DNA of 53,247 bases. Source: Bacillota bacterium. GTDB lineage: Bacteria > Bacillota > Clostridia > Peptostreptococcales > Anaerovoracaceae. Numbering within the stretch: position 1 is the first letter of the stretch; the number at the start of each line of letters is the position of its first letter. This document shows, in pieces, positions 8,674 through 25,523 of the stretch. The translations under genes and the position numbers were made by a program. The stretch is from assembly GCA_017431785.1 (NCBI GenBank), contig JAFRKJ010000040.1, positions 1-53,247 on the forward strand. The letters are read 5' to 3'. The notes below the pieces were generated by a model that was not told the DNA's origin, searched no databases, and saw only the letters and a list, made by a program, of their open reading frames with translations.

Positions 8674-9570
8674 TTACTCTTCTTCACCTGCTCTGCGTCT
8701 CGCAAGGAATGCTGCGATCGCTGCGATGATTGCTGCTACTGCGACACCACCGATGATGTAAGGCAGTGCGCTTCCGCCGCCGCCTTCTTCCTCGTCAGGA
8801 TTTGCGAGCGGTGTGTCGCTGTCATCAATGTCTACTGTATTGGCTGGTGCGTTAGCAAGTGGCACAGCACCGTCTCCTATATTAGCAGCAGCATTGGCAT
8901 TGCCTGCTGCATTACCAGCTGCTGCATTGGCGGCGTTGGCATTAGCTGCAGCATTGCCATTTATTACAATGTTTCCATCCTGAACAGTAATGATCTGCCC
9001 AGCATTATCTACCGGGTAATAATAGAATGTGAACACATTGTCGCTGCCTCTTTTGAGCTCTCCTGTCCTGTTGTATGCATCAGGCAGATAGCCTTCAACA
9101 TACTTGTAGGCGACAACTGGCTTTTGTCCTACTACACCGTAATGTTCTTCCTGTTTATGAAGCACTGTTGATCCATCTGCAGTGATATAGCGGATGGTGT
9201 ATTTGATCATGTTACTCTTAAGACCATATGCTACGACCAGAGACTCATCCTCATTATAGTTAGCCAGATCAACAGTCCCTGTAATGACTTCAGAATTATC
9301 GTGCCCCGTGACTTTCATCCCGATAACGAAGTGATTTTCATCCGGTGCTGTAATATCGACCGTATCGTCTCCGACAGTCAGTTGGGCGTTGTCGATGTCA
9401 ATGGAAGCCGTGGTTCCTTTGAGCGTGCTACCGCTGCTGAATGAACCGTTTCCTGCAGTGACTTCCAGCTGATGCTTATATCCGTCATCTCCGAATGCGC
9501 TGACTGTCATCATTCCGAATACCAGACAAGCTGATAAAACCAGAACTGCTATTCTCTGAACCTTCTTCAT
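8674..9570 (-). CDS. Secreted MucBP-domain protein with C-terminal membrane anchor
   Basis: This gene encodes 298 residues. A signal peptide covers residues ~1-27 (MKK, hydrophobic core, SAFG). The middle holds a beta-rich region, then a MucBP-like module at ~130-190 (YI..DG..VLHKQEE.YG ... Y..GYLPDAYN ... FTFYYY). An Ala/Asn-rich linker (NAAANANAANAAAGN type) and a Gly/Glu stretch precede a hydrophobic helix at ~270-291 and an ARRRAGEEE tail. There is no LPXTG motif, so it is probably held by its C-terminal helix. Its ATG overlaps the stop of the preceding gene by 4 bp (ATGA), which implies translational coupling. It is the last gene of the operon, just before two terminators. It may be a wall or membrane base for the fibre; that role is inference. 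Confidence 0.8.
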   Translation of the reverse strand: MKKVQRIAVLVLSACLVFGMMTVSAFGDDGYKHQLEVTAGNGSFSSGSTLKGTTASIDIDNAQLTVGDDTVDITAPDENHFVIGMKVTGHDNSEVITGTVDLANYNEDESLVVAYGLKSNMIKYTIRYITADGSTVLHKQEEHYGVVGQKPVVAYKYVEGYLPDAYNRTGELKRGSDNVFTFYYYPVDNAGQIITVQDGNIVINGNAAANANAANAAAGNAAGNANAAANIGDGAVPLANAPANTVDIDDSDTPLANPDEEEGGGGSALPYIIGGVAVAAIIAAIAAFLARRRAGEEE

Positions 9571-10313
9571 GCCTCCTCACCTTCCTTTCTGTCTTTTTTG
9601 AAACTCAGTATAGTAAGTATGAGAAGTATTGCTGCCAGTGTGAGCATCAGCAATGGAAGCAGCAGGTTTGCATCATCTCCGGTCCTTACTGTTTTGCCCG
9701 GGATATGATTGTAGATAATACCACCGTCTGCTGCATTCTCAACTCCATAAGCGATTCGAAGCTGTCCGATGGCTGACTGATAACTGTTAGCCTGTGATTC
9801 GCCATCAAGAGCTACAGTAAGCTTCGTAACACCTGACTGTCCACTTTTCAGTGTGTCAATGTAAAGCCATTCTTCTGTAGCGTTTGTCGCAGCCCTGAGT
9901 CCCTTATCGGCCTTATCAGGGTTCTCGCTGTCAGCACCTGCTACCGCATCACTGCTGAAGATCGTAACAGTTCCTTCCTTCTTTCCTTCATTGACCAGCT
10001 TGTACGTATAACCGCCATCCGCGGCTCCGTTAATGCTCTCCTCTTCCAAAGTCTTCACAACCGTATTATCGAGATACCAGTCTGTATCATTGCCTGACTC
10101 GTTTTTGTATTCGAATACAAATGTCATGCTATCGCCCGGCTCCAGATCACCGATTGCTTCATCGAGCTTAGCTGCTGCCTCGCTGTTGTTGATGTCTGTT
10201 CCATCATAAGTGAATGTGCCGCCGTCATAGTTTGCTGCAAAAGCGATCTGGCTCATCATGAGTACTGTAATGAGGGCCAGCAGAAGGATCATTGTTTTTC
10301 TTAATTTCTTCAT
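9567..10313 (-). CDS. Secreted protein with C-terminal membrane anchor, fibre operon
   Basis: The product has 248 residues, with a signal peptide at ~1-27 (MKKLRK..., cleavage near AFA) and one C-terminal helix at ~216-237 followed by the basic/acidic tail SFKKDRKEGEEA. The extracellular part is beta-rich and acidic, with no Cys and no family motif I recognise with certainty. It loosely recalls the TasA/TapA-type beta-sandwich accessory proteins encoded beside SipW (the word SGQSGVTKLTVALDGE resembles the linker before such domains). A strong SD (AGGAGG, 7 nt spacing) precedes the ATG, 12 nt after the TasA-like gene. A TapA-like fibre base is a possible role, but this is inferred from position and topology only. 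Confidence 0.7.
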   Translation of the reverse strand: MKKLRKTMILLLALITVLMMSQIAFAANYDGGTFTYDGTDINNSEAAAKLDEAIGDLEPGDSMTFVFEYKNESGNDTDWYLDNTVVKTLEEESINGAADGGYTYKLVNEGKKEGTVTIFSSDAVAGADSENPDKADKGLRAATNATEEWLYIDTLKSGQSGVTKLTVALDGESQANSYQSAIGQLRIAYGVENAADGGIIYNHIPGKTVRTGDDANLLLPLLMLTLAAILLILTILSFKKDRKEGEEA

Positions 10314-10325
10314 CTCCGTACCTCC

Positions 10326-11024
10326 TTACAGATCAATTCCTACGGATCCGGCATCAACGCCCCAGACACTCTTGATCGCCTTGGCTGCATTATGTGTCTG
10401 TACGGCCTGAGCTTCAGCCTCCACATTGAAGGTGTATCCGTTGTACTTGTAGGTATAAGTTATGATAGTCTTAGTGGCTTTTCCTTCCTGGACGCCTTCA
10501 ACAATCTTGCCTTTGCCTTCTTCCAGAACATCGCCGCTAATTCTGATATCCTTGAACAGCTCTTGCTCAGCTCCCGCTTTCAGGATATTTTTGAGGTAGT
10601 AAATCTGCGTTTCCTCACTGCCGCCTTCTTTCACCGTCCAACTCTTATCTGCAGTCAGTTCAATCAGATCCGGACTTAACGTTGTGGCTTTCGCACCCTC
10701 TTTATCTGTCCAGTACTTGCGAACTATAACTCTGACATATTCGTCTGCGTCGCCATTATTGACCACACCAACAGAGTCCTTATATGTTCTGGTCGGTTCG
10801 ATTTTGTTGCCTATCGATTTATATAGTACTCCGTCATCAACAGTTTTTCCGTTCTCCGTAATGCCTACCGCTAAACTATCTGTTGCAATTGTGGCATCAT
10901 AGTTATCACTTGTTACAGTAATTGCCGCCTTGGTTCCAACTGCTCCACCAGATACTAACAACAGCAGAGAAACTGCAAAGAGTGCTATTGTACGCTTTGA
11001 TAGTACAGTGTTTCTAAATTTCAT
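10326..11024 (-). CDS. TasA/camelysin-like secreted fibre protein (second, longer copy)
   Basis: The chosen ATG at 11024 gives 232 residues. A GTG nine bases upstream would overlap the AGGAGG SD, whereas the SD stands 8 nt before this ATG. The N-terminus is a SipW-type export signal: basic MKFRNTVLSKRT, a hydrophobic core (ALFAVSLLLLVSGG), then AVGTKAAIT. The mature part fits the TasA/CalY pattern: early beta strands, VGVVNNGDADEYVRVIVRKYW, and a central K/E-rich segment. It lacks a C-terminal anchor. In Bacillus, TasA is processed by SipW and forms the amyloid-like biofilm fibre; the sipW-like gene of this locus suggests the same route. It lies 15 nt after the shorter paralogue. The family assignment is by N-terminus, size and context, as the mature sequence is diverged. 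Confidence 0.75.
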   Translation of the reverse strand: MKFRNTVLSKRTIALFAVSLLLLVSGGAVGTKAAITVTSDNYDATIATDSLAVGITENGKTVDDGVLYKSIGNKIEPTRTYKDSVGVVNNGDADEYVRVIVRKYWTDKEGAKATTLSPDLIELTADKSWTVKEGGSEETQIYYLKNILKAGAEQELFKDIRISGDVLEEGKGKIVEGVQEGKATKTIITYTYKYNGYTFNVEAEAQAVQTHNAAKAIKSVWGVDAGSVGIDL

Positions 11025-11039
11025 TTTCGCCACCTCCTA

Positions 11040-11552
11040 TCATTCCGCTGAGATGGAAGGAATATACTTCCATCCTTCAGGCTTCTCAACTTTGTTATTG
11101 CTGTCATAAGTCGGCTGTGCCGATTCATGTGTTACTACGATCTGATAGCTGTCACCAAGATCCGTTCCTGCAGGATATTCTCCTGTGTTGGCTACAATCG
11201 GTGTTGTTACGTCACCATCTCCATTTTCACCTGGTTTTAATATCTTGTTGTAGTAGTAGTAATCTCCATTTTGTTCCCAACCGTCCGACGGCTCAATAGT
11301 CATTTGTGTCGGTCCAACGATCATCACTCTGACAACTATATTCGTCTCTCCGGTGTTTTTAATAGTAACGGTTTTCTGATTTTCGTTTACATCTTCTTTT
11401 ATCTCAGTTTTTCCACCAAGGGAGAGCACTGCTCCTCCCTTGGCTTCTGTGTAATCACTGAAGTATGCAAATGCCACACCTACTGAGAGGGAGAGGACAA
11501 GTGCCATCGAAACAGCTAACAGAATTGATTTTTTATTCATTATTTTCTTCAT
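11040..11552 (-). CDS. TasA/camelysin-like secreted fibre protein (first copy)
   Basis: The product has 170 residues from ATG 11552; the upstream GTG at 11561 is rejected because AGGAGG sits 8 nt before the ATG and overlaps the GTG. The N-terminus has the classic SipW-dependent signal: MKKIMNKKS, a hydrophobic core, then VGVAFAYFSDYTE, matching the AYF(S/T)D hallmark of TasA, camelysin and related proteins. The mature domain shows KTVTIKNTGETNIVVRVMI, a strand pair typical of the TasA-type beta-sandwich, and ends without an anchor. It starts 18 nt after the giant vWA gene and precedes the second TasA-like gene. It is a likely structural subunit or co-polymer of the surface fibre, exported by Sec and cleaved by the SipW-like peptidase at 25026-25523. 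Confidence 0.85.
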   Translation of the reverse strand: MKKIMNKKSILLAVSMALVLSLSVGVAFAYFSDYTEAKGGAVLSLGGKTEIKEDVNENQKTVTIKNTGETNIVVRVMIVGPTQMTIEPSDGWEQNGDYYYYNKILKPGENGDGDVTTPIVANTGEYPAGTDLGDSYQIVVTHESAQPTYDSNNKVEKPEGWKYIPSISAE

Positions 11553-11570
11553 TTTGTCCACCTCCTTCTC

Positions 11571-14500
11571 TTAGTCTACTGCATTGTCGCCGGGACTTTT
11601 CTCCGTCCCTGCCCGTTTCTCGGTGCCGGCTTTTTGTTCTCCTTTTCCGGAAAAGTCATAACCGCCAGTGTCATTCTTTGTATAGTTGTTTATTTCACCG
11701 CTGTTGTAATTGAGGTTGTCATAAACATTCTTGAATGATGCTTTGTAAACTCCGTCTTCTAGTTTCAACGTTACAGTAGGCTCGTCTGTAGTGAAGTTGC
11801 TTGCATATACCTCTGTTACCTCTACCGGTATATCTGTTGGTATCCTGGAGATTGTAACAGTCTTCACTTTTCCTGCTTCGACCTCTGCTGCAGAGAACTT
11901 GATTCCACCGGCCGCTGAGAACTTCTTGCCCTTTGTTTCTTTGTCGACAACTCTGAACGCAAGTGTTACATCATTGACACCGTCATGCTGAACAAAGTTC
12001 TCAAGTTCCTTAGTGATCGTGATGTCTGTGTAAGCTCTGGTATTGGTGAACTCTGCATCATACTCGACCTCTGCTGGATCCTTGGTGACCTGAAGTGTGC
12101 CATCTCCATTGTCTTCTACTGTGACTTTCACGGTCTTTACAGAATTATCATATCTGTAGTTTCCAAGTTCGAAGATGCCATCTGCTGCCGGATCTTCCTT
12201 GTAGGTCTTACCTGTCTTAGTGTTCACAGCATCGTCAGGGATGACTTCCTTGATGGTGTAGGTGTAATCACCTGTTTCATCGATCGTCTTTTCTGATTCT
12301 GCATCGTACTTCTTGACGTACTCAATCGTACTGAACGTGAACTCTGAGCTTGTTCCTGCCTTGGTATCTGCGTCGCCTTCAACATCGGCACCTTCGCCAC
12401 CTGCAGTTGCGGTAGCAACTTCACTGCCGTCCCCATCAAGTATTACGAAGTCGAATGACTGCTCAGCAAGGTCGCCGTATTCGAGAGTCTTAAGTCCGTC
12501 GAGTACAAGCTCGCCTCTGGCTTCATAGTCGTTGATGAACTCCGGTGTAGGAGCTTTGTCCTTACCGTCATACTTGATATCGAGTGTTCCGTCACCGTTG
12601 TCTGTTACAGTAACCGGAATCGTTGCAACTGTGGTGTCATATGTGACTCCGCCAAGTTTGTCTGCATCATCAGCAGGCACAACTTCTGAAATTGTTACGG
12701 TGTGGTCCCCTGTCTGATCCTTTCCAGTTTCTTTTACGAACTGAATCGCATCAAATGTTACCTTACCATCTGCATCATTTGCTTCCGTACCACCGACTGT
12801 AGTGCCATCCAGTTTGAGCTCGAATTCGAATTCACCTTCTGCAAGGTCACGTCCTCTGAGCGTCTTCTGTGCGTCAAACTCTGCAGATCCAACCGCTCTG
12901 TAAGTGTTGGTAACTGTCAAAGCTTCTTTGTCTTCGTCATAGGTAACGCTCTCGACCTCGAGTGCATTGGTATCAGGATCCTTGCTGATGACAACGGTTA
13001 CCTCATATGTGTTCATATCATATGTGATTCCGCCCTTGCCGCCATCAACTTCTGTGATCGTGTACTTATATGTACCTGCCTTCTCGAATGTGATCTCTCC
13101 GAATACCGCAGTCTGGTTAGCTTTTGTTGCTTTTGCTGTTCTGGTCTCTTTGCCGAGGATCGTATCGATGATGCTTCCCTTTGGCATTGGCGCGCCATCG
13201 ACACCTTCCAGCGTGAACTCGAATTCATCAGCATCCAGCCAATCACGTCCTGAGAGTTCCTTTGTTACCTGAAGCAGATCTTCCGTAACCAATGGGGTAT
13301 ATGTGTTCTCAATGGTCAGGCTCTCTTCGCCATCGTAAGTTACTGTTGCAACAAGTGTATTGTCTGTGTCGCTCTTCTTCGCAACGGTTACGATGACTTC
13401 GTGTGGTGTTTCATCATAGGTGACGCCATCCACATGATCGTTGATCTCAGTAATGGTGTATTTGTATTCACCAGACTTCTCATAGGTGATAGTTCCAAAT
13501 ACTGCTGTCTTCTTATCCTTTGTCGCCTTTACTGTATCTGATGCCGGCATTGGAGTTGTTTCAAGTCCTGCAGTATTGCTGACCGCTTCAAGTTTGAATG
13601 TGAAGCTGTCTGCCTTGCCCCAGTCATTGAATTCCTTGGTCGCCTTGATCAGATCCTCTGCAACGAGTGGCTTATAAGTATTCGTTACAGTCAGTTTATC
13701 TTTATCGCCGTCATACTTGACTGCTGCTGTCAGCTTGTTCGTATCAGGATCCTTGCTGACAGTCACAACTACTTCATAGGACTTCGTATCGTATGTTACG
13801 CCGTCCGCATGATCATCAGTCTCTGTGATCGTGTACTTGTATTCACCGGCCTTTTCGAAGGTGATATCACCAAACTCAGCAGTTGGGGCGTCCTTTGTCG
13901 CCATTGCTGTCTTCGTTGTACCGGTGACTCCCTCTGGCATCGGTGCATTACCCTGAGCTTCAAGTGTGAAGGTGAAGCTGTCTGCCTTACCCCAGTCATT
14001 GAAGTTCTTTGTTACCTCGATACCCTTCTTTACTGCCGTATATGTGTTCGTAACGATCAGGCTGTCTTCAGTATCATCGTACTTGACAGTCGCTACCAGA
14101 GTATTATCTGTTTCACTCTTCTTCGCAACGGTTACAACTGCTTTGTGTGGTGTCGTATCATAGCTTACACCATCAGCTCCATCATTGCGTTCAGTAATTG
14201 TGTATTCATACACACCAGCCTTCTCGAATGTGATTTCTGGGAATGCTGCCACTGGTGAACCCTTTGTAGCGGTTGCTTCTGTTGTCGAAGGCATTGGAGG
14301 CAGTTTGCCATCCTTTTCAACTCCTGCGAGATCGAATGTGAAGCTTTCTGCCTTGCCCCAGTCATTGAACGCCTTGGTTGCCTGAAGTGTTGCTTTCGTT
14401 GATTTGTAATTATTGACGATTGTCAGCTCATCAGCATCCTCATATTTGACTGTTGCTGTCAACGCATTGGTTGCATCTTCAGCTTTCGTAACCGTTACAA

Positions 14501-17500
14501 CAACCGTCTTCGGCGTTGTGTCATAGGTTACGCCATCTTCATGATCATCAATCTCAGTGATTGTGTACTTGTATTCTCCAGCCTTCTCAAACTGAACTTT
14601 TCCGAAGATTGCAGTCTTGTTCTCTTCCGTAGCCGTTACGCGTGTATTTGCAGGCATTGGATTGGTATCGACTCCTTCGATGTCATTTCCTGCATCTGCA
14701 AGCGTGAATGTAAAGCTCTCTGCCTTACCCCAGTCATTGAAGGACTTGGTTGCTTTGAGTTCCACGTCGTTGGACTTGCTGTAAGTATTGGTTACTATAA
14801 GGCTATCCGCATTGTCTTCACCATAGGTAACCGTTGCCTTGAGCGTATTGTCTGTGTCGCTCGTCGGACTGATAACAATCGTGACTTTCTTTGGAGTCGT
14901 ATCATAGGAGACGCCATCGGCTCCGCCATTGCGCTCTGTGATCGTGTACTCATACTTTCCGACCGTGTCGAATGAGATGTCTCCGAATACTGCTGTCGGC
15001 GAAGCCTGCGTAGCAGTAGCACTTCTTCCTGCTTCTGCAGGCATTGGCGCGCCCTCTGTTACAGCTGCCAGATCGAATGTGAAGCTGTCTGCCTTACCCC
15101 AGTCTTCGAAGGCCTTTGTAACTTCAGCATGTGTTGTGACTGGAGTAAATGTATTCGTTACAGTCAATCCATTTTCTGTCTCATATTCAGGAGTTGCCGT
15201 AAGAGCGTTTGTTTCAGGGTCTTTCACTACATGGACAGTGACAGTATGCGGCATTGTGTCATATGTAACGCCAGGAACACCGCCGTCTCTCTCTGTAATT
15301 GTATAGATGTAGTCTCCCGCTTTTCCGAACTTGATTTCGTCGAATACTGCTTTCTTTCCGTTTGTAGAAGTTGCAGTTGCAACAGTGTTTGTAGGCAACG
15401 GAGCGCCTTCTGTTACGGCTGCCAGATCAAATGTAAAGTTGTCTGCCTTGCCCCAGTCTTCGAAATCCTTTGTTGCTTCAAGCTTTACACCATTGGATTC
15501 ACTGTAGCTGTTCGTGATGGTAAGTGATGTCTTTCCATCGTATTCGATTGCAGCTGAGAGCTCATTCTTCGGCGCATCACCCTTTGTGACAGTTACCACT
15601 ACTTCGTGTGGTGTTGTGTCGTATGTTACACCGTCTACATGATCATTGACCTCAGTGATGGTGTACTTGTAAATACCGGCCTTCTCAAACTCGATCTCAC
15701 CGAATAATGCCTTAAGATTGTCTGCTGTTACTGTCTTGCTGACCTTGCCGCCAGACGCATCTGCAGGCATCGGAGTATCGATTGTCTCACCTTCAGCATC
15801 TTGAGATTCTCCCGGAGCAAGCTCGAATGTGAAGCTTTCTGCCTTGCCCCAATCAGAGAATGACTTTGTTGCTTCAAGCTCTTTTTTCACAGGTTTGTAT
15901 GTATTTGTGATCGTCAGGCTATCCGCATTATCATACTTCACTTCTGCCGTCAGCGCATTGCCTTCACCCTTTGATACAGTAACAACAACATTGTGCGGTG
16001 TCGTGTCATATGTTACACCATCCGCTGTTCCTGCTGTCTCTGTAATGGTGTAGCTGTAAGTGCCAGCCTTCTTATACTCGATTTCGCCGAATATTGCAGT
16101 AGGGTTGTCTTCGGTGACTTCCATAACAACCTTGTTGTCGGTTGCGCCTGCTGGCATTGGTGCACCATCTACAGGTGCCAGCGTAAATTCGAAGCTGTCC
16201 GCCTTGCCCCAATCTGCAAAGCTCTTCGTAGCCTGCAATGAGGTTTTGCTGCTTGCGAACCTATTGGTGATGATTAGTTCTTCCTGATCGGTATCATACG
16301 TAACTGTTGCTGTAAGTGCATTTGTATTTGCATTCTTATCTACGTGAACAACAACCGTGTGCTCACTTGTATCGTATGTAACGCCGTCAACTCCATCGTC
16401 TTTTTCAGTGATAGTGTACCTGTAGTCTCCCGCCGCTGGATATTTGATGGTGCCAAATACCGCGGTTGGAGCAACTTCCGTTGCCTTTGCTGTCATGGTG
16501 TTGCCTTCGGCACTCGCCGGCATCGGGGCGCCACCCTTTGCTTCGAGCGTGAATGTGAAGCTGTCTGTCTGTCCCCAATCATTGATCTGCTTCGTTACCT
16601 GAATAGGGGCCTCTGCAGGTGTAAATGTGTTATCTACTGTCAGAGAAGCAGAAGCCTCACCGTCATAGGTTACTTCCGCAGTAAGTGCATTTGTATCAGG
16701 ATCCTTGCTGACAGTTACAACAACAGTATGTGTGCTCGTGTCATACGCAACACCATCTGCACTTCCTCTTACCTCGGTAATCTTATATGTGTATGTGTCT
16801 GCTTTCTCGAATGTGATTGTACCGAATGTATCGGTATAATCTGGTGTATCCTTTGTAATTTCTACCGTTCTGGAATCGCCTTCTGTAAGGAGATCACCTA
16901 ACGCTTCTGTGAGTCCTGATGCAGGAGGCATCGGAGCGTCATCGGATACTGGTTCAAGCTTGAATATGAACTTGTCGCTGTTTGTCCAGTCACGTCCGGT
17001 GAAATTCTTCGTAACATCAATCGGAACTGTTACAGGCTCAAATGTGTTCTCAACTGTAAGGCTGTTTTCTCCATCGTACTTAACTGTTGCTGTCAGAGCA
17101 TTGTCGTCACCCTTTGTGACTGTTACGACGACGTTGTGCGGTGTTGTATCATACGTTACTCCGTCCGCTCCGTCGTTCTGCTCTGTGATCGTGTAGTTAT
17201 ATGTGCCAGCCTTTTCGAAGGTAATATCTCCGAAGTCAACAGTCTTGTTTGCCTCAGTTGCCGTTCCGATCTTGGATCCTTCCGAGGATCCTGCCGGCAT
17301 CGGTGTTGTAACGCCTGCTGTGTTCGTTCCAGCTTTCAGTTCGAATCTGAAGCCTGCTCCAGCTTTCGCCCAGTCATTTTTACCAAAGTCTTTCGTAACT
17401 TCGATTGATTCCTGAACCGGAGTGAATGTGTTCTCAATTTCGAGCTTTTCAGCCGAACCATAATCAACAGTTGCTGTCAGTTCGTTTGTATCGGTATCCT

Positions 17501-20500
17501 TCACCACATGAACTGTTACTTCATGCGGAGTAGTATCATACGTAACACCATCCACGCCATCGTTGACCTCTGTTACGGTGTAAGTATAATCCTTCGCTTC
17601 CGTGAACTCGATGGTACCGAATACTGCAGTCTTTGATGACTCAGTTACCTGAACTGTCTTCGTTCCATCCTCAGCAAGACCGGCAGGCATCGGAGCACCT
17701 GCTGTTTTAGCTGCCAGCTTGAATGTGAAGCTGTTTGCCTTGCCCCAGCTATCGAAGACCTTTGTAGCCTCGATCTGAGCGGATGTTGGACTGAACCGGT
17801 TCGTAACTGTAAGACCTTCAAGATCTTCTCCTCCATCATAGCTCCATGATGTAGTGAGAACATTTCCTGCACCCTTCGTTACCACAACAGTCAGAACGTG
17901 TTCAGATGTATCGTATGTAATACCATCTGCAGTTCCTTTGGTTTCTTTAATAATGTAGGTATATGTTCCGGCCTTATTGAACTTAACCGTTCCGAAGCTT
18001 GCAATAGGATTGGCCTTAGTTGCTGTCGCCGTTGTGTTCGCAGGCATCGGAGCTGTGACTCCAGCCGGAGCGGAACCTGCTGTCAGCGTAAATTCGAAGC
18101 TGTCAGTGTTATTCCAGTCACGACCTGTCAGTGCTTTGGTTACCTGAATTGGAACTTCTGTAGAAGGCACAAATGTGTTGGTGACACTAAGCGCATCCTT
18201 TTCTTCATACTTTACAGAAGTTACTGAAAGTGCATTTGTTGCAGAGTCTTTGCTGACCGTCACCACAACGTTCTTTGGCGTTGTATCATAAGCGACACCA
18301 TCCAGGTCTCCCTGTTCCTCTGTAATAGTATAGCGGTATGTTCCTGCTTCGTTGAACGTAATCGTTCCGAACTTCGCGATGTTCTCGTTTACCTCTGTTT
18401 GAGGATCATCCTTAGTAGCCGTCGCAGTTCTTCCTGCTTCTGCAGGCATCGGAGTTGTAATTGTTTCATCTGCAGCATTTTGAGATTCTCCAGCAGCAAG
18501 TGTGAACGTAAAGCTGTCTGCATCTTCCCAATCACGTCCAGACAGGATCTTCGTAACTTCAAGATCCTGTGTTACAGGAGTAAATGTGTTTTCAACTGAA
18601 GCCGATGCCTCGCCATCATACTTGATGCTTGTAACCAGCTTATTATCAGCATCAGTTGAAACTGTAACAACTACATTGATTGGTGTTGTGTTGTATGTAA
18701 CGCCATCAGCGCTACCCTTAGTTTCTGTGATTGTGTACTTATAAGTACCGACACTATTGTAGCTGATGTTCCCAAATGCAGCTATCCAATTGGAAGCTTT
18801 ATTGGCTGTAGCTGTAGTTTGTGCCGGCATTGGTGTGTTGTCGTCTTCGCCAACAATAGTGAATGTGAATGAATCATCATCCTTGAATTCACGGCCGTTC
18901 AATGTCTTTGTGACTTGCGGAGCAGCCGTTACCGGGGTAAGTGTATTTGTTACTGTGAGGGAGTTCTGATCTCCATCATACTTAACTGCTGCAACAAGAT
19001 CACCATTTGCATCTTTGCTTACAGTAATCTTTACCGTATGCGGCGTTTCATCATAAACCACTCCCGCTATAGGATTCTGCGGTTTGATTTCAGTTATCGT
19101 GTATTCATATTCTCCCTCTTCAGAGAACATGATTGTTCCGAAACCTACAGTTTTGTTATTACTGTCTGCTGTTACTGTTTTTTCGTCATCAATCGTACCA
19201 GCTGGCATCGGTGCGTTTTCAGTAACTGGTTCAAGCTTGAACTGGAAGCTGTCACTAGCAGTCCAATCACGTCCGGACAGCTGCTTAGTAACTTCAGGCT
19301 CGGCAGTAGCCGCTGTCACTTTGTTAGTATATGCAACTGAAAAGACATTGTTTGGCTGATCAATGGTGCCAGTAACAGTGTCGCCTCTCACCGTGCCAGG
19401 TGTAGCCTGATAATCGGCGGCATAATCAGGATCTGTTACTTCTGTAGAGGTCTCCGCTTTCACAAAACCGTAGCCGGTTGACATGGCGGTTTCCTGTATG
19501 GAATAGGTAGTGCCTGTTGGAAGGTTGAAGAAACGTACATTCCAACCATCCTTAATGCTAATGGTAAATTGTGCACCAGATGGGACAGAATAACTGCCTG
19601 TCGGGTTGCCCGATGCATCAACTTGTGGTGTTACGTTGGATGAATAATTTTCAATCGGTACAGTATTACCATCCTTGTCCTGTGCACCAAACCATACGGC
19701 ATCACCATTGATGTCCGTAACGGTGATAGTGTAAGTAAACGTTGCATTTGGATTCGGATTTGGATTGGTTTCTACATTCTTGCTCAGGTTCAGATTGCTT
19801 CGACGATCATTCTTGGCAACCAGCTGTGGATGAGTAGTCTCACTTACCTGATAACTCTTGCCATCAATTACATAGTAATCCGTTCCCTCAGTTCCTGTAG
19901 GGTTATCTGTCTTGATCAGCATAGTCAATGTTCCATTGATGACCATTGGACGATAGACATCTGCCGTCAGATCCCAGTAGTAGGAGAAGGAAGCCGGCTC
20001 AGTAACTGTGTATTCATGACCTTTTTCACGGACGTTATATCGCCCATCAGAAGTCTTGGTGATAAAGCCAGTGGAAATATACTCCTTACCAGATGTCCAG
20101 TTATTACCGTTGTTGAGAGAAACATTATCGAGATAAGCACTTCCGTCCTTCGTCACTGTCAAGGTGATTCCAGTTTCAACTCGAGGGTCTAACGCGTTGT
20201 GCCACTCCTTCTTAACTGTGATGTCGTCTGAATCCAGCGACATGTTCTGAAGAGTTCCTTCAGTATAATTTGCATCTATATCAGTAGTATCAGAAATAGT
20301 TACAGTATCACCAGTCTTGGTTGTCTTGTTGTATGTAGCATTTACCTGGTCTGTATTTGTTTTCAGGGCGTATGTGCCTGTAGTAGTTGCAGTTGGTGGT
20401 GTAACTTCTACGACCTGCGCTTTCTCTGCGTCTGTGAGTGATGCATAAGTTCTCAAGCCGTTATTCAGGTCGGCAACCAGGTCATATGCCGCCTGGCTAG

Positions 20501-22787
20501 GCCAAACCGTGAACTCGACAACGTAAGTGACATCATTCTCCAACTGGAAGGTTTCGCCCATATCCCAATGGACCGCTCCATCAGTCTCACTATATGTCGC
20601 TGCTGCACATCCATCTGCAGCGCGGGTTGTCCACTCTGTCTTGTGCGCGTAATCAGCTCCATACTTGTTATTCTCGCCGCCATAGCGGTAGTATTTGAAA
20701 CTGTTTGGATCTACGGTCTGCATGACCTTCATCTCGGCATTCGTCAGAGCTGTAATACCGTCGGTAATCTCCACATCGCCAAAGCCAAGGTTTGTCTTAA
20801 TGGACTGAGTGATGTTTGCAAAGGCTTCTTCAAGAGCAGCTGAATCCGTTGCAAGGTAAGCCGTGCCGCCTCCCGCTTCATCTACAAGGTTCTGTACCTT
20901 GGTAACATCCGCTGAAACGCCGATAGCATAGAAGGTCTTATTGCTATCAAGAATCGATTTCACTTCCTCTGCAGCATAGTCGAAGTTTCGATTAGCACTG
21001 TCATTATTACCTTCGCCATAAACATGATTATTTCTATAGTATTGGTATGTAGTATTGCTATTATACGTTTCAGTACGAAGAGCATTATTGTCTACATCAC
21101 CACGGCTGACGCGGAATGTTGGGTCACCATCTGTTACGAATACTACATATGTCGCAGCATCACTGTCGACAGCCATTCTATTCGCAACAGAAAGCGCCTG
21201 TTCCCAGTTCGTACCACCGCTAGCTGTCAGACCGTCGACCGCATCTTCATATGTGTCGTAGTCATCCGTAAACTCTTGAACTGTGCTTGCAGTAGTTGAG
21301 AAGGACACAAGTGCCATCTTAACACCGGTAATATCCCCATCCAAAAGTGTTTCGGCCATGTTCTTTACTGCATTTTTGGCCGTATTTAAGCGCCAAATAT
21401 TGTCACCACCCATGGAACCTGACCGGTCAAAAACAACGATAACATTAGCTTTTGTTGACCTTTCGTAAGGGGCCTCACCACCGCTGATGCTAAGAGATAC
21501 GGTATTAGTGCCATTACCATTATTTGTTGAGGACTTGCCGAACTGTGGTGTAGCCGAACCTTGCGGCCAATCACTTTCTTGAGCATCGTCAATTACCGGA
21601 GTACCACCTGTTGTCGGGTCCGCTTTCTTCTTATAGACAACATAAATGTCGTCATTGTTAGACATCTCAGTCCAGTTTACATTATTAGTACCTGTATACC
21701 GCCAGTAATTGTTATTGTTCTTACTTAGAATTGGCGCAATTCTGTTCGCATTGGTATCTGTATTCCTATATGTATATGAATACTCATATCCATCGATATC
21801 ATAAATCAGGAATGCAGGTGACGATGAGTTGGCATTCATGTCTGGATGCGTGTTGTCCGGATTCGCAATCGTCAGCTCATTCCCATTCTCATCGACATAG
21901 TGAACTGTTACAGTACGTGCGTTATAACCTGTTCTCCACGTAATCGTAAATGTTGAGAAAACATCAACGTTGAAATCTGTCTCCGCTGTTTCTTTCTTTT
22001 CTTTTACGTTGATTTCTCCGAGGTCCTTATCCTTTGTTGCTTCCTTGCTGTCCACTGTCGCAACTTTTTCAACGACAATATCACCTGTACTTTCGTTCAG
22101 GTGCTGGATCTCCATGGATGCTGCCAGGTCCTCTGCGGCAACTCCCTCAGGAAGTTCTTTGAACTCAACGCTTACGGAAACTTTGCTCTCAGGTTCGACA
22201 ACATTGCCATCCTTATCGCGGATAGTCAAATCGAAGGCTGCCATACCCAAGTCTTCCTGTTCTTCCTTGGTGGTCTGTGAGAACACGGAGTTGCCGTCCT
22301 CATCATCTACCAAGGCTTGCTTAGCGTCTTTGTACTCTTTGTCCTTCTGTGAGAATTCCGTGATGAAAAGCTCTGCATCTTTAGGAATCATCGCGTCGGC
22401 GTCATAGGAAACGGTGATTTTGTACAAGTCACTCTCCTGTTTCAAATCGCCGCCCGAGAATTCAGAATCAGCATCTGCATCTTCTTCTGATGCGATCTCA
22501 TCATCTGAGGCATCCTCATCATTCGTTGTGTCTTCCTTCGTTGTCTTTGCCTTCGTTGCTTCTGTTGCCTCCGTCTGAGGTTCATCCTTCTGCACAGCTT
22601 CTGTAGCTTCTGTTGGTTCATCCTGAACCACTTCAGTCTGTACATCGTTCTGAACGTCATCAGGAGCAACTTCCGGCTCTGCCGCATACGCAAACAGTGA
22701 TGTCGGTATGAATGTGACCGTCATCATGACTGAAAGCATTGCAACGAGAAGTCTCTTACCTAAGGTCTTCTGTTTTCGTTCTTTCAT
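11571..22787 (-). CDS. Giant vWA/Spy0128-repeat fibre or adhesin protein (3738 aa)
   Basis: A signal peptide covers ~1-36 (FAYAAEPE), followed by a Glu/Thr-rich acidic segment to ~115. A vWA domain lies at ~445-640 with MIDAS motif DRSGS starting at Asp454. A Cna/DUF-type beta region fills ~850-1160. About 19 Spy0128-type (FctA pilin backbone) modules of 115-140 residues follow at ~1160-3590, then a last Cna-like domain. Nearly every repeat keeps the Lys (VTK or ATK), Glu (YTITE) and Asn (TNTY) expected to form intramolecular isopeptide bonds, which would make a stiff, protease-resistant stalk with the vWA head at the tip. The C-terminus is hydrophilic (KGEQKAGTEKRAGTEKSPGD), with neither LPXTG nor a membrane helix, which is odd for the family. 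Attachment may be through the TasA-like partners encoded 18 nt downstream (inference). Confidence 0.92.
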   Translation of the reverse strand: MKERKQKTLGKRLLVAMLSVMMTVTFIPTSLFAYAAEPEVAPDDVQNDVQTEVVQDEPTEATEAVQKDEPQTEATEATKAKTTKEDTTNDEDASDDEIASEEDADADSEFSGGDLKQESDLYKITVSYDADAMIPKDAELFITEFSQKDKEYKDAKQALVDDEDGNSVFSQTTKEEQEDLGMAAFDLTIRDKDGNVVEPESKVSVSVEFKELPEGVAAEDLAASMEIQHLNESTGDIVVEKVATVDSKEATKDKDLGEINVKEKKETAETDFNVDVFSTFTITWRTGYNARTVTVHYVDENGNELTIANPDNTHPDMNANSSSPAFLIYDIDGYEYSYTYRNTDTNANRIAPILSKNNNNYWRYTGTNNVNWTEMSNNDDIYVVYKKKADPTTGGTPVIDDAQESDWPQGSATPQFGKSSTNNGNGTNTVSLSISGGEAPYERSTKANVIVVFDRSGSMGGDNIWRLNTAKNAVKNMAETLLDGDITGVKMALVSFSTTASTVQEFTDDYDTYEDAVDGLTASGGTNWEQALSVANRMAVDSDAATYVVFVTDGDPTFRVSRGDVDNNALRTETYNSNTTYQYYRNNHVYGEGNNDSANRNFDYAAEEVKSILDSNKTFYAIGVSADVTKVQNLVDEAGGGTAYLATDSAALEEAFANITQSIKTNLGFGDVEITDGITALTNAEMKVMQTVDPNSFKYYRYGGENNKYGADYAHKTEWTTRAADGCAAATYSETDGAVHWDMGETFQLENDVTYVVEFTVWPSQAAYDLVADLNNGLRTYASLTDAEKAQVVEVTPPTATTTGTYALKTNTDQVNATYNKTTKTGDTVTISDTTDIDANYTEGTLQNMSLDSDDITVKKEWHNALDPRVETGITLTVTKDGSAYLDNVSLNNGNNWTSGKEYISTGFITKTSDGRYNVREKGHEYTVTEPASFSYYWDLTADVYRPMVINGTLTMLIKTDNPTGTEGTDYYVIDGKSYQVSETTHPQLVAKNDRRSNLNLSKNVETNPNPNPNATFTYTITVTDINGDAVWFGAQDKDGNTVPIENYSSNVTPQVDASGNPTGSYSVPSGAQFTISIKDGWNVRFFNLPTGTTYSIQETAMSTGYGFVKAETSTEVTDPDYAADYQATPGTVRGDTVTGTIDQPNNVFSVAYTNKVTAATAEPEVTKQLSGRDWTASDSFQFKLEPVTENAPMPAGTIDDEKTVTADSNNKTVGFGTIMFSEEGEYEYTITEIKPQNPIAGVVYDETPHTVKITVSKDANGDLVAAVKYDGDQNSLTVTNTLTPVTAAPQVTKTLNGREFKDDDSFTFTIVGEDDNTPMPAQTTATANKASNWIAAFGNISYNSVGTYKYTITETKGSADGVTYNTTPINVVVTVSTDADNKLVTSIKYDGEASASVENTFTPVTQDLEVTKILSGRDWEDADSFTFTLAAGESQNAADETITTPMPAEAGRTATATKDDPQTEVNENIAKFGTITFNEAGTYRYTITEEQGDLDGVAYDTTPKNVVVTVSKDSATNALSVTSVKYEEKDALSVTNTFVPSTEVPIQVTKALTGRDWNNTDSFEFTLTAGSAPAGVTAPMPANTTATATKANPIASFGTVKFNKAGTYTYIIKETKGTADGITYDTSEHVLTVVVTKGAGNVLTTSWSYDGGEDLEGLTVTNRFSPTSAQIEATKVFDSWGKANSFTFKLAAKTAGAPMPAGLAEDGTKTVQVTESSKTAVFGTIEFTEAKDYTYTVTEVNDGVDGVTYDTTPHEVTVHVVKDTDTNELTATVDYGSAEKLEIENTFTPVQESIEVTKDFGKNDWAKAGAGFRFELKAGTNTAGVTTPMPAGSSEGSKIGTATEANKTVDFGDITFEKAGTYNYTITEQNDGADGVTYDTTPHNVVVTVTKGDDNALTATVKYDGENSLTVENTFEPVTVPIDVTKNFTGRDWTNSDKFIFKLEPVSDDAPMPPASGLTEALGDLLTEGDSRTVEITKDTPDYTDTFGTITFEKADTYTYKITEVRGSADGVAYDTSTHTVVVTVSKDPDTNALTAEVTYDGEASASLTVDNTFTPAEAPIQVTKQINDWGQTDSFTFTLEAKGGAPMPASAEGNTMTAKATEVAPTAVFGTIKYPAAGDYRYTITEKDDGVDGVTYDTSEHTVVVHVDKNANTNALTATVTYDTDQEELIITNRFASSKTSLQATKSFADWGKADSFEFTLAPVDGAPMPAGATDNKVVMEVTEDNPTAIFGEIEYKKAGTYSYTITETAGTADGVTYDTTPHNVVVTVSKGEGNALTAEVKYDNADSLTITNTYKPVKKELEATKSFSDWGKAESFTFELAPGESQDAEGETIDTPMPADASGGKVSKTVTADNLKALFGEIEFEKAGIYKYTITEVNDHVDGVTYDTTPHEVVVTVTKGDAPKNELSAAIEYDGKTSLTITNSYSESNGVKLEATKDFEDWGKADNFTFDLAAVTEGAPLPTNTVATATSTNGKKAVFDEIKFGKAGDYIYTITERDGGVPGVTYDTMPHTVTVHVVKDPETNALTATPEYETENGLTVTNTFTPVTTHAEVTKAFEDWGKADSFTFDLAAVTEGAPMPAEAGRSATATQASPTAVFGDISFDTVGKYEYTITERNGGADGVSYDTTPKKVTIVISPTSDTDNTLKATVTYGEDNADSLIVTNTYSKSNDVELKATKSFNDWGKAESFTFTLADAGNDIEGVDTNPMPANTRVTATEENKTAIFGKVQFEKAGEYKYTITEIDDHEDGVTYDTTPKTVVVTVTKAEDATNALTATVKYEDADELTIVNNYKSTKATLQATKAFNDWGKAESFTFDLAGVEKDGKLPPMPSTTEATATKGSPVAAFPEITFEKAGVYEYTITERNDGADGVSYDTTPHKAVVTVAKKSETDNTLVATVKYDDTEDSLIVTNTYTAVKKGIEVTKNFNDWGKADSFTFTLEAQGNAPMPEGVTGTTKTAMATKDAPTAEFGDITFEKAGEYKYTITETDDHADGVTYDTKSYEVVVTVSKDPDTNKLTAAVKYDGDKDKLTVTNTYKPLVAEDLIKATKEFNDWGKADSFTFKLEAVSNTAGLETTPMPASDTVKATKDKKTAVFGTITYEKSGEYKYTITEINDHVDGVTYDETPHEVIVTVAKKSDTDNTLVATVTYDGEESLTIENTYTPLVTEDLLQVTKELSGRDWLDADEFEFTLEGVDGAPMPKGSIIDTILGKETRTAKATKANQTAVFGEITFEKAGTYKYTITEVDGGKGGITYDMNTYEVTVVISKDPDTNALEVESVTYDEDKEALTVTNTYRAVGSAEFDAQKTLRGRDLAEGEFEFELKLDGTTVGGTEANDADGKVTFDAIQFVKETGKDQTGDHTVTISEVVPADDADKLGGVTYDTTVATIPVTVTDNGDGTLDIKYDGKDKAPTPEFINDYEARGELVLDGLKTLEYGDLAEQSFDFVILDGDGSEVATATAGGEGADVEGDADTKAGTSSEFTFSTIEYVKKYDAESEKTIDETGDYTYTIKEVIPDDAVNTKTGKTYKEDPAADGIFELGNYRYDNSVKTVKVTVEDNGDGTLQVTKDPAEVEYDAEFTNTRAYTDITITKELENFVQHDGVNDVTLAFRVVDKETKGKKFSAAGGIKFSAAEVEAGKVKTVTISRIPTDIPVEVTEVYASNFTTDEPTVTLKLEDGVYKASFKNVYDNLNYNSGEINNYTKNDTGGYDFSGKGEQKAGTEKRAGTEKSPGDNAVD
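12000..19310 (-). repeat. ~19 tandem Spy0128-type coding repeats (about 350-420 bp each)
   Basis: The repeats are recognised by recurring DNA words such as TGCCTT(G/A)CCCCAGTC (DWGKA), GTGTA(C/T)TTGTA (YKYTI) and the GTATC(A)TA block (VTYDT). Units vary in length and sequence, unlike the homogeneous 273-bp array at the left edge. The subgroup with DWGKA(D/E)SFTF is most alike and forms the central block; repeats with SGRDW flank it at both ends. Confidence 0.85.
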
Positions 22788-22866
22788 AACACTACCTGCC
22801 CCTAATCATTTGATAAGATAAAAATTTATTAATATAAACAGGAAACTAATGCGCACTAAAAATAGT

Positions 22867-22893
22867 GGGCATAATCCAAGATGGATTATACCC
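22867..22893 (-). promoter_or_regulatory. -10 box inside a 12+3+12 inverted repeat, upstream of the giant fibre gene
   Basis: On the minus strand GGGTATAATCCA, TCT, TGGATTATGCCC form an inverted repeat with a single G-U-type mismatch. The left arm contains a perfect TATAAT (plus-strand 22885-22890), about 98 bp before the start codon. No good -35 lies 16-18 bp upstream, which suggests an activator-dependent promoter. The hairpin is followed by ACTATTTTT, so a terminator or attenuator for the kinase transcript is the alternative reading. Confidence 0.5.
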
Positions 22894-22910
22894 TATTTTC
22901 ACAGAAAAAA

Positions 22911-22952
22911 CACATGAATTGGCAAAAAAATAGAAAAAATGGCATGAACGTG
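22911..22952 (-). promoter_or_regulatory. Candidate LytTR-type binding region for the giant fibre gene
   Basis: The plus-strand copies CACATGAA (22911-22918) and GGCATGAA (22941-22948) are 30 bp apart, centred near -37 and -67 relative to the start implied by the TATAAT box. The 12-mer GGCATGAACGTG (22941-22952) recurs exactly, in reverse complement, upstream of the other giant gene at 8483-8494. Binding by the LytTR regulator encoded at 24298-25029 is inferred. Confidence 0.4.
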
Positions 22953-22981
22953 AAAGAATAACCAATTGATGGAAATTGCAG

Positions 22982-24301
22982 TCAGATAATGGAAATTCTG
23001 GTGTCGACCATGAACTCGGAATCCGTGTTGCTGATGTTCATCTCACCATTGTACTTAGACACGATAGCGCGCATGGACGGAATGCCCAGACCGGACCCGC
23101 CATCTTCTGCTCTGGTGCTGTGATAACCATACTTGTCTTTTCGCACCTGTCCATCAAAAGAGTTTGTGGAAACAATGAACAGCTCATTGTCAAACGGCGC
23201 TTTGACCGTCAATGCGAATCGGCGGTCTTTTGGCGAAACCGTTTCGCATCCGAGGATCGCATTTTCCCCAAGGTTCTGCAGATAGTTCGCAACGTCTACA
23301 GATTGCTGCTCCTCCATCATTGGAATATCTACACTCAAATCAAATTGAATCTCAGATTCATCACAGCGGTCTGCAATGGTATTCAGTACCGCATTCAGAA
23401 TTCCATCTTCACAATACTGGTGTACGGAATCTGTCGGCATGGTTTCCAGTCTTACATCAAGATACCGGAGCACTTCTTCGACCTTGCCCTCCCTCAACAG
23501 CTTTTGGGCAAGCAGCATTGCATGCTTAATATCGTGGCGGACAATTCTGTTTTCCTCCAGCGTCTGCTTCATCGTCTCGTATTGTTGCCTTTGCATTTTG
23601 AAAACGGTCTTCTGTGCTTTGAGCTGATCGATCGACATGAGCGTTTTACCAACATCGAGAAAACGATATACCATGTAACAGTACATAAAAATCGTGACGA
23701 CGGCCAGGCCCACTACACTGAAATAAATGAAAGGATCATCATCCGGACGAAAAATCAACGGAACAGTTATGACAAGCACAACAAATACGCCCGCCGAAAT
23801 AGGGATGGAGCTAAGCCATATCCAATCGAGTTTCAGATTATCAACCATAAATGTGCCATTCCGTTTGAACGGCTTGTAGAACATGACCGCCATCAAAAGC
23901 GCAAATCCAACCTGCATGATATTTGAAATCATATCGTTATCTGCCATAGCTTCACTTCCGAAGAGCCCCCTATATATAATGTAGGTAACTTCAGAAGCCA
24001 TCGCCATCATCGCGCATACCGCGGCAAATACTCCAAGGTTCTGACTGACGGACGCCTTTGTGGAATAAATGTAATAGATACAAAAGATTACAAGAAACGG
24101 AAGCAGTGTGAGCGTGCTGTCCGTATTGTTCGTCACAATCTCTATTGCGAGAATTCCGGCTGCAGCAAAAACGAACAGAATCAGGCAATCGCGAACGATT
24201 CTGCCTTTTGAAAACCGCAGCTGGTTCCGCATGGGGAGATAGCACATAGAACCCGCCGGTAAGATGATCAGTGTTGAAATCGACGTAGTCAGTGCAGTCA
24301 T
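22982..24301 (-). CDS. GHKL-type sensor histidine kinase (AgrC/VirS-like)
   Basis: The kinase has 439 residues. About seven hydrophobic segments fill residues ~1-215 and form a membrane sensor. A short dimerisation helix follows with the phospho-acceptor motif RHDIKH (His near residue 255), then a GHKL ATPase domain with the N-box-like NYLQNLGENAI and a late GSGLGIPSMRAIV glycine motif. This architecture is that of kinases paired with LytTR regulators, which often sense peptides or envelope state. Its ATG overlaps the regulator stop by 4 bp. No autoinducer-peptide gene is visible nearby, so the signal is unknown. It lies upstream of, and on the same strand as, the fibre genes, which it probably controls. 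Confidence 0.9.
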   Translation of the reverse strand: MTALTTSISTLIILPAGSMCYLPMRNQLRFSKGRIVRDCLILFVFAAAGILAIEIVTNNTDSTLTLLPFLVIFCIYYIYSTKASVSQNLGVFAAVCAMMAMASEVTYIIYRGLFGSEAMADNDMISNIMQVGFALLMAVMFYKPFKRNGTFMVDNLKLDWIWLSSIPISAGVFVVLVITVPLIFRPDDDPFIYFSVVGLAVVTIFMYCYMVYRFLDVGKTLMSIDQLKAQKTVFKMQRQQYETMKQTLEENRIVRHDIKHAMLLAQKLLREGKVEEVLRYLDVRLETMPTDSVHQYCEDGILNAVLNTIADRCDESEIQFDLSVDIPMMEEQQSVDVANYLQNLGENAILGCETVSPKDRRFALTVKAPFDNELFIVSTNSFDGQVRKDKYGYHSTRAEDGGSGLGIPSMRAIVSKYNGEMNISNTDSEFMVDTRISII

Positions 24302-25029
24302 GATTGTTCCTCACGTATTTTATCGAACTGGTACGATCGCCATGTGGCGATGAGTGAGCTCCTGTCTCTATGACGAATCGGCAACCATGTATCGTCAATC
24401 ATTCTGCAGTCTCCTTCTTCGATGCTCTTGATATGATCCATGTTGACGAGCACGCCTTTGTTGATCTGAAGGAAACACTTCCCCGTTTCCAATTGATCAA
24501 GAAGCTCACGAAAAGTCATCCTCAGGCGCACTGGCTCTCCATTCAGTATGCGGATGTTCAGATAGTGACCGTCCGTATAGGCGCATATAATCGTTTGATG
24601 CGGAATCTGGAGTTCCTGGGTGCCCTGCTTGACTGACAGTTTCTTTGTCACCGGGAGCACTTTGATTGCATCATCTAAAACATTCTGCACCTGGTGCTCA
24701 AGTTCTTCCTTCATGATATAGGAGAACGCATGCACGGCAAATGCTTCCGGCATGTGATCGGAACTGCTCGTCAGAAAAATGATCATGCACTGCGGATCTC
24801 TGCGCCGCAATTTCCTGGCCGCCTCGATGCCGGTCACTTCCTGTCCATCAAAATAGATGTCCATGAAAACGATGTTGTATTGTTCTTGCTGCGCCTCTTT
24901 CAGAAATTCTGCCGCGTTATCGTAGCCGCTGAGGTCAATCATGACTCCCTTCTCTTCGCTATAATGACCGAGCAGTGCTCCCATCTGCTGCAGGATTTCC
25001 TGATTGTCATCGACACATGCGATTTTCAT
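24298..25029 (-). CDS. LytTR-family response regulator
   Basis: The product has 243 residues. A receiver domain occupies ~1-120, with acidic pair DD at 7-8, phospho-acceptor Asp near 57 in VFMDIYF, and a conserved Thr/Ser (LTSSSD) and Lys (IMKEE). A LytTR DNA-binding domain follows at ~135-235 (CAYTDGHYLNIRI, FLQINKGVLVNMDHIKSIE). It overlaps the SipW-like gene upstream and the kinase downstream by 4 bp each, so the three are co-translated. LytTR proteins bind paired short direct repeats; candidate sites lie upstream of both giant surface genes. A dedicated regulator of the fibre locus is the natural reading. Confidence 0.92.
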   Translation of the reverse strand: MKIACVDDNQEILQQMGALLGHYSEEKGVMIDLSGYDNAAEFLKEAQQEQYNIVFMDIYFDGQEVTGIEAARKLRRRDPQCMIIFLTSSSDHMPEAFAVHAFSYIMKEELEHQVQNVLDDAIKVLPVTKKLSVKQGTQELQIPHQTIICAYTDGHYLNIRILNGEPVRLRMTFRELLDQLETGKCFLQINKGVLVNMDHIKSIEEGDCRMIDDTWLPIRHRDRSSLIATWRSYQFDKIREEQS

Positions 25030-25523
25030 TTTTCCTGCCCCCTGTTCTTTCGCCCGACTCTTCTGCCGACTTCCGCCAGCAGGTATCCGGCCAGGATGAT
25101 CATCGCTGCTGCAATCTTGCCCATGACAGTTCCAAGTGCTCCCGTAATCGCTCCGATGACAGGGACGTGCGCAACAACTCTTCCCTCTACATTTGTGTAT
25201 AATGCAGGCCGCATATCAATGCCGTTGTTGGCGTCACCCTTGGTGATGATCTTCTGTGTGTCTGTATCATTTTCGACGACGCGGTGGGTAATTGGCGTGC
25301 CGTCCTTACTGTCATAAAACAGGATCACATCACCCTCCTGCAGTGTCGCCGGTTCACAGCTCTTTACATAGATGAGACTGTTTACCGGGATGGCAGGCGT
25401 CATACTTCCTGAAACAACAACATAAGAGCTGAGTCCGAATAACCTGGGCACTGTTACTGCCAGACAAACAACGATGACAGCAACGATCAGAATTGTTCCG
25501 ATTATATTACAAAGTTTCGCCAA
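25026..25523 (-). CDS. sipW: SipW-like (ER-type) type I signal peptidase
   Basis: The product has 165 residues, starting at TTG 25523; SD AGGAGA stands 5 nt upstream and no ATG is available. An N-terminal membrane helix spans ~8-28, the catalytic Ser lies in VVVSGSMTPAI, and the second catalytic position is His in THRVVE rather than Lys, which defines the ER/SipW class. A C-terminal helix lies at ~130-150 before a basic tail (RRVGRKNRG). In Bacillus, SipW processes TasA and TapA. Here it heads the transcript for the two-component system and stands upstream of TasA-like genes with matching signal peptides, so those are the likely substrates. Having regulator genes between sipW and its substrates differs from the Bacillus tapA-sipW-tasA order. 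Confidence 0.92.
   Translation of the reverse strand: MAKLCNIIGTILIVAVIVVCLAVTVPRLFGLSSYVVVSGSMTPAIPVNSLIYVKSCEPATLQEGDVILFYDSKDGTPITHRVVENDTDTQKIITKGDANNGIDMRPALYTNVEGRVVAHVPVIGAITGALGTVMGKIAAAMIILAGYLLAEVGRRVGRKNRGQEK

Follow-up and report, generated by a model that had tools for sequence, protein, structure and literature searches.

The stretch analysed here, called the window throughout, is a complete contig (C87) of 53,247 nucleotides from a Bacillota bacterium of the family Anaerovoracaceae, whose genome assembly (2.72 Mb in 96 contigs) is 81% complete with 5.2% contamination. Our subject is the locus at 8674..25523, which encodes a SipW-like signal peptidase, a response regulator, a sensor kinase, a giant secreted protein of 3738 residues, two BsaA-like secreted proteins that we call TasA1 and TasA2, and two further secreted proteins, TM1 and TM2. 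This gene order, first described from the letters alone (hereafter the sequence-only reading), is borne out, with all genes on the minus strand, the short overlaps as described and a single 194-bp gap. We find that the giant shares its C-terminus with the accessory pilins of a large family of sortase-containing loci, and on balance, with moderate confidence, we favour a surface fibre whose assembly needs no class C sortase, with the giant as a ready-made shaft docked on a BsaA-like base whose TM1 subunit is anchored to the wall by a class B sortase. The features that bear on this are as follows.

25026..25523, minus strand: SipW-like signal peptidase (TIGR02228, 86.7 bits, above cut-off; NF046067 SipW, 70.6 bits, below its 190-bit cut-off)
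11571..22787, minus strand: giant secreted protein, 3738 aa, with signal peptide, vWA domain, 19 FctA isopeptide domains and C-terminal docking domain
21126..21443, minus strand: vWA domain (aa 449-554 of the giant), putative adhesin at the tip (PF13519, E 9e-15)
12039..19295, minus strand: stalk of 19 FctA/Spy0128-type domains (19 matches over cut-off; 1109.6 bits)
11640..12044, minus strand: putative docking domain of the giant, aa 3582-3716 (accessory pilin hidden Markov model (HMM), 39.3 bits, independent E-value (i-E) 1.3e-10)
11682..11699, minus strand: tail motif GEINNY, aa 3697-3702, holding an invariant Asn
11040..11561, minus strand: TasA1, SipW-type secreted BsaA-like protein (TIGR04088, 18.2 bits, just under the cut-off of 19)
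10326..11033, minus strand: TasA2, secreted BsaA-like protein (BsaA kinship through members of its alignment)
9567..10313, minus strand: TM1, putative subunit of the base or anchor, with a sorting-type signal at its C-terminus (motif conservation)
9675..9689, minus strand: VRTGD sorting-type motif of TM1
8674..9570, minus strand: TM2, secreted, with an Ala/Asn-rich linker and a C-terminal membrane anchor (partial, below-cut-off match to a doubled-motif LPXTG model, 21 of 48 bits)

Spy0128, or FctA, is the shaft pilin of Streptococcus pyogenes and is represented by the domain models PF12892 and TIGR03786. In 19 of 19 FctA domains of the giant the isopeptide triad (Lys, Glu, Asn) is retained at each column, and FctA domains in this genome are confined to the giant's frame (19 matches). 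Inspection of the giant's C-terminus (...SPGDNAVD) reveals neither an LPXTG motif nor a membrane anchor, and LPXTG is also absent from the last 62 residues of the giants and upstream genes listed. Among related loci, numbered with an L below, the giants differ in their domains, with FctA in the window and CnaB, beta-helix or leucine-rich repeats elsewhere; the L029 giant aligns with that of the window over the first 1156 residues (36% identity), the window's FctA stalk giving short weak matches only in L029. The giant frames are unbroken in the window, L028, L049, L068 and L081.

Relatives were gathered by searching the TasA2 alignment against genome contigs, which gave 336 confirmed matches; the best 80 of these, four loci from genomes and the window make up the 85 loci studied (two pairs are identical records), on which all locus counts rest. 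Profile matches were found for TasA2 in 85, TM1 in 85, TM2 in 84, SipW in 73 and a class-C-type sortase in 70 of these loci; recruitment was via TasA2 or TM1, so it is TM2 that provides independent evidence that the locus is not a chance arrangement. Matches titled Lachnospiraceae account for 62 of the best 80 contigs and 11 lack a family name, with Dorea, Blautia, Coprococcus, Eubacterium ramulus and Faecalicatena among the genera in the titles. Closer to the host the locus is sparse: counting the window's own genome, TM1 is found in 4 of 119 genomes of the host family, and the TasA2 alignment matches 15 of 197 genomes at E <= 0.001 and 6 of 197 below E 1e-60, with no match of the latter strength in any of the four other genomes listed under the same genus.

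The common form of the locus reads LPXTG pilin, sortase, sortase, accessory pilin of about 350 aa, TasA1, TasA2, TM1, TM2, SipW. In the Coprococcus comes example (L061) the pilin is SpaH/EbpB-like (91.9 bits against a cut-off of 95) and both sortases are class C (287.7 and 273.1 bits). We could place 82 locus copies, leaving out L084, L088, L090 and L097, which did not yield the full set (in L084, L090 and L097 a TM1 match is present but its best label differs). A local upstream class-C-type sortase is found in 66 of the 82 and not in the other 16; three of these (L041, L046, L052) end less than 1.7 kb upstream and are cut off, which leaves 13 that lack it. The sequence-only reading had proposed a genome search for co-occurrence of these families, and they do recur together; far from being an isolated chimera, the set stands beside local class-C-type sortases in most related copies.

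In the window's clade, one giant stands in place of the pilin, the sortases and the accessory pilin. A tree of TasA1, TasA2 and TM1 together (80 rows, LG+G4; L087 and L054 dropped as the same records as L019 and L023, and L041, L046 and L052 kept without a sortase state) pairs the window with L027 (99/94), then L030 (99/98), then L028 and L029 (100/100), within a 12-row clade (100/100) in which 11 rows are sortase-less. L021 and L081 are sortase-less separately from this clade, and the state has to change three times on the tree, with starred branches forcing two of these changes; the root being unknown, the tree is silent on gain versus loss of sortases. Two loci, L066 and L076, look like possible intermediates, each having only one sortase, an accessory pilin and, upstream, a large protein (of 1617 aa and of 1077 aa, the latter perhaps cut off), and in L049 (9458-14842) the TasA1-TasA2-TM1 set occurs twice in succession.

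What connects the two forms is the end of the giant. We built an HMM from the C-terminal 170 residues of 59 accessory pilins; L050, duplicates, genes shorter than 280 or longer than 460 aa, and loci in which no upstream gene was placed did not enter it. This docking HMM matches the C-terminus of 12 of the 12 giants or giant pieces first tested, with i-E from 1.5e-9 to 3.4e-31 and the match lying 1-37 residues from the giant's end. The set of 12 includes two pieces (the second piece of L029, and L037, cut at a contig end) and three further incomplete giants (L020, L027, L030), and leaves aside the second copy of L049 and L107-L109, L107 being the same locus as L030. The placed genes adjacent to TasA1 all score at least 30 bits (75 of 75, 59 of which built the HMM), the accessory pilin of the sortase locus L108 matches at 2.4e-13, and the best frame outside the accessory-pilin type reaches 13.4 bits. 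We conclude that, judged by sequence, the giant's docking domain and the domain that ends the accessory pilin in sortase-containing loci are homologous.

Across an alignment of 71 docking domains, the triad Lys, Glu and Asn are each kept in 71 of 71, as is a second Asn in the tail, 13-15 residues past the domain's own Asn. The surrounding tail motif resembles G-[VI]-x-N-x-[FY], the residue two after the tail Asn being Phe or Tyr in 70 of 71. Two accessory-pilin-type frames, at 7810-9321 of L050 and 7044-8489 of L043, have a longer, anchored end, as if fused to a TM2-type end.

The window's TasA2 and TM1 have no convincing Pfam or NCBIfam family match as single proteins, so their identity is taken from aligned relatives. 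The BsaA model TIGR04090 is matched at E <= 0.01 by 53 of 62 TasA2 and 38 of 68 TasA1 alignment members, the window's own TasA1 and TasA2 not being among them; two Coprococcus comes proteins score 42.8 and 22.3 bits, below the 60-bit cut-off. The TasA1 and TasA2 profiles resemble each other with 98.2% probability, partly from the signal peptide. AlphaFold2 monomer models of both are mostly beta-strands, with a mean predicted local distance difference test score (pLDDT) of 85.4 for TasA1 and 84.5 for TasA2. TasA2 has a conserved mature N-terminus (A36 invariant; A37, L38, S42 and Y45 at least 90%), and residues 33-50 have pLDDT <50 in its model, as could be expected of a donor strand.

TM1 carries a TGD-type motif ahead of its membrane segment, with Thr in 59 of 59, Gly in 56 of 59 and Asp in 58 of 59 aligned members; these counts come from the alignment, as a fixed window of the last 70 residues misses longer tails. 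The sortase B target model TIGR03063 (srtB_target) is matched by 21 of 59 members and an LPXTG surface-protein model by 28 of 59.

The sequence-only reading had also called for a search of the full genome for sortases. PF04203 finds three in the window's genome, all on other contigs and all scoring highest with the class B model (160.6, 126.8 and 115.4 bits, the first alone over the 153.75 cut-off); judged from neighbouring genes, two lie in mobile-element-like regions, and the third (C92) has ordinary chromosomal genes around it. The class C model (E <= 1e-10) has no match in this genome, nor in those of five other carriers of a sortase-less locus (G050, G119, G121, G123 and G124). G050, which is 97% complete, has a single sortase, class-B-like at 147 bits and thus just below the same cut-off, and no sortase was found in G193, the 71% complete carrier of L109. 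A Mogibacterium genome (G178, taken as equal to G122) has both forms, the sortase-less giant locus L107 and the full class C sortase locus L108. What had been described as a SipW/TasA-type set and an isopeptide stalk in one locus without a sortase stands as far as class C is concerned, both locally and in the 81% complete genome assembly, and has to be amended for the class-B-like enzymes encoded elsewhere. A fully sortase-independent fibre is too strong a claim, in view of these enzymes, the TGD motif of TM1 and the srtB_target matches of its relatives.

In the model that we favour, TasA1 and TasA2, trimmed by the SipW peptidase, would form a wall-fixed socket together with TM1, which may be fixed to the cell wall through its VRTGD motif by a class B sortase encoded elsewhere. 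The giant would bring a complete shaft with its vWA tip, which may serve adhesion, its 19 isopeptide-locked FctA domains and its C-terminal docking domain. In the common form, the docking domain ends the accessory pilin, and would there link a sortase-polymerised shaft to the same base; with this domain fused to one giant chain, no polymerising sortase would be needed. Most likely, the conserved tail strand that follows the docking domain fills a groove in TasA1, this being the simplest way to read a strand-like conserved motif close to a chain end. The N-terminal strands of TasA1 and TasA2 may each fill the next subunit, giving an assembly order giant-TasA1-TasA2-TM1-wall that would be identical to the gene order. 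The chemically reinforced giant seems to stand in place of an enzyme-built pilus shaft.

Several observations weigh against this model. The docking HMM misses the sortase-less giant of L109 at E 1e-4, and this giant has no aromatic residue after its tail Asn; the window's own tail has Glu two before the Asn, where 68 of 71 have Val or Ile. The docking domain does not always end the chain, since L050 and the second L043 frame continue for about 150 more residues to a membrane-anchor-like end; for this reason, we grade the docked shaft and the covalent joint discussed below lower, and the relict sortase locus higher. A class C sortase is present, one each, in G017, G120, G122 and G125, four of the 10 carriers of a sortase-less locus, and the 81% completeness of the window's genome limits what its absence there can mean. 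The window's TM1 has no good match to a sortase-target model and is not among the TIGR03063 matches of its genome. Foldseek searches of the PDB with both AlphaFold2 models do not place TasA among the best 50 of 1605 and 995 matches, those listed being of a generic beta-sandwich type and none under E 0.001, and profile searches of solved structures give no TasA match for TasA1 or TasA2. The TM1 profile finds weak partial TasA matches (5of1, E 0.23; 8aur, E 0.62), beside which ribosomal proteins score alike and a designed protein scores better, and none of these is usable; single window proteins give no usable match in the same search. The tree, finally, uses a single-matrix model and has three long end branches (L035, L019 and L021). 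The TasA-like identity proposed from the letters is upheld as sequence kinship to the BsaA family via relatives, and is not confirmed as a TasA fold by structure search.

The alternative that survives best is the one first put forward, in which TasA1 and TasA2 are the subunits of a long polymeric fibre of TasA type, with the giant carried on it or tethered to it and no sortase taking part at all. The kinship of both proteins to the BsaA family agrees with it, and in Clostridium perfringens BsaA polymers are described as resisting boiling sodium dodecyl sulfate and forming independently of the flanking sortase, deletion of srtB being without effect (PMC7395162). The conserved sorting-type motif of TM1 and the class-B-like sortases in the genome run counter to it, and the fact that the set travels with sortases in 66 of 82 copies fits a base better than a main fibre. 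We consider this alternative doubtful.

The docked shaft must also be set against a decayed or rearranged sortase-pilus locus, from which the sortases have been lost while a class C sortase elsewhere still works. Sister forms do carry sortases, and in two of the four carriers with a class C sortase the gene lies within a second locus of the same kind (L019 in G017; L108 in Mogibacterium). A working enzyme elsewhere is difficult to reconcile with the failure to find one in the other 6 of 10 carriers, one of them 97% complete, and with giants that have no LPXTG in their last 62 residues; the unbroken frames in the window and four other loci do not have the look of decay. We regard this explanation as unlikely.

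An extension of the docked-shaft model, which we consider improbable, is that the tail serves as a natural tag: it would repeat the end strand of the isopeptide domain, Asn included, insert into TasA1 and form an intermolecular isopeptide bond between Lys63 and the tail Asn, helped by Glu56 or Glu146. A covalent joint is possible in view of the tail's resemblance to a second isopeptide end strand and of the conservation in TasA1 of Lys63 (invariant, 68 of 68) and of Glu56 and Glu146 (65 each). If true, shaft and base would be joined covalently by self-catalysis and without a sortase, in a natural counterpart of SpyTag/SpyCatcher used across gut Clostridia, and in the window's clade the tag would also allow a single giant chain to take over from an entire pilus shaft of the sortase-built kind.

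That the giant is an independent secreted adhesin merely adjoining a SipW/BsaA-like biofilm locus would suit the variation of the giants in most parts but the C-terminus (FctA, CnaB, beta-helix, leucine-rich repeats), and is highly improbable given a docking domain common to 12 of 12 giants tested and to accessory pilins at the same site beside TasA1, the position being partly by selection, as the TasA1-adjacent gene was chosen for the comparison, and the homology not.

The remaining features of the locus are regulatory or intergenic.

24298..25029, minus strand: LytTR response regulator (PF00072 and PF04397)
22982..24301, minus strand: GHKL sensor kinase (PF14501)
25577..25604, minus strand: promoter-like site before SipW, TTGACT, 16 nt, TATAAT (11/12 consensus matches)
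22867..22893, minus strand: terminator- or attenuator-like hairpin in the kinase-giant gap, with a T-rich stretch after it (12-pair stem)

The LytTR and GHKL profiles match just the window and L029 among the 85 loci, several of which end early upstream so that the presence of regulator or kinase cannot be judged there; a sensor pair dedicated to the system, as had been proposed, is rejected as a family feature on this count. The promoter scan of the window gives 22 sites against a shuffle mean of 27.4, fewer than in the shuffles, and the terminator scan 11 sites against 14.0, and we discard both scans as evidence. For the hairpin it is conservation that provides the support, the 194-bp gap (22788-22981) having a mean column identity of 92% between the two sequences of the window and L029, and we keep it as a lead.

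A gap separates TM2 from a second giant surface protein farther downstream (1-8292, minus strand; at least 2764 aa), which runs off the contig and has Listeria-Bacteroides repeats and MucBP domains; L029 has a relative of it at the same position (58.6% identity over 2361 aligned columns). Near the other contig end are pieces of a group II intron (52887-53165, minus strand; two Rfam matches) and a reverse-transcriptase-like frame (51444-52826).

These loci tie sortase pili and SipW/TasA-type fibres, usually treated apart, into one base across many gut genera. They suggest a route by which a pilus shaft becomes a single giant gene and drops its polymerising enzyme, and they offer a concrete test case for how accessory pilins that lack LPXTG are held; the giant-on-base design may amount to pilus building without the usual pilus-building enzyme. 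In the open-licence papers that we searched, most subscription papers lying outside the search, we found no account of the combined base-and-sortase loci of Lachnospiraceae or of giants that share the accessory pilin C-terminus.

Among the closest known systems is the sipW-bsaABCRSD operon of C. perfringens, which unites SipW, a BsaA-family fibre protein, other secreted proteins and a two-component system required for expression, so that this combination is already known; an FctA giant, a docking domain and a sorting-motif protein are not among its parts as described in the portions consulted (PMC7395162). The window's kinship to the BsaA model itself runs through relatives only, and the scores given above for two of these are below cut-off. 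In Bacillus subtilis the mature N-terminus of TasA is a donor strand, and TapA is proposed to supply the first (PMC9674648); the TasA/CalY/CapP fibre of B. cereus is a known sortase-independent one (PMC13082335). Both resemble the window in their SipW-dependent small subunits and differ in that the excerpts of these two papers describe neither an isopeptide stalk nor a wall-sorting motif, the TasA fold itself being unconfirmed here. The archaeal thread filament of Saci_0406, from another domain of life, is like the BsaA polymers a precedent for the proposed joint: it has donor-strand joints and a proposed intersubunit isopeptide bond with no known sortase, though the bond is a different one, joining an Asn side chain to an N-terminal Asp (PMC9715654).

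Class C sortase pili with a SpaH/EbpB-type backbone, whose subunits are joined by Lys-Thr bonds, share the isopeptide-type domains, and the relatives of our locus have class C sortases and LPXTG pilins beside the same base genes; the window has no adjoining class C sortase or LPXTG pilin, and one giant chain replaces the polymer. With Spy0128/FctA of S. pyogenes the giant shares the domain family and the same Lys-Glu-Asn triad, and it differs in having 19 copies of the domain in a single chain, with no sorting signal.

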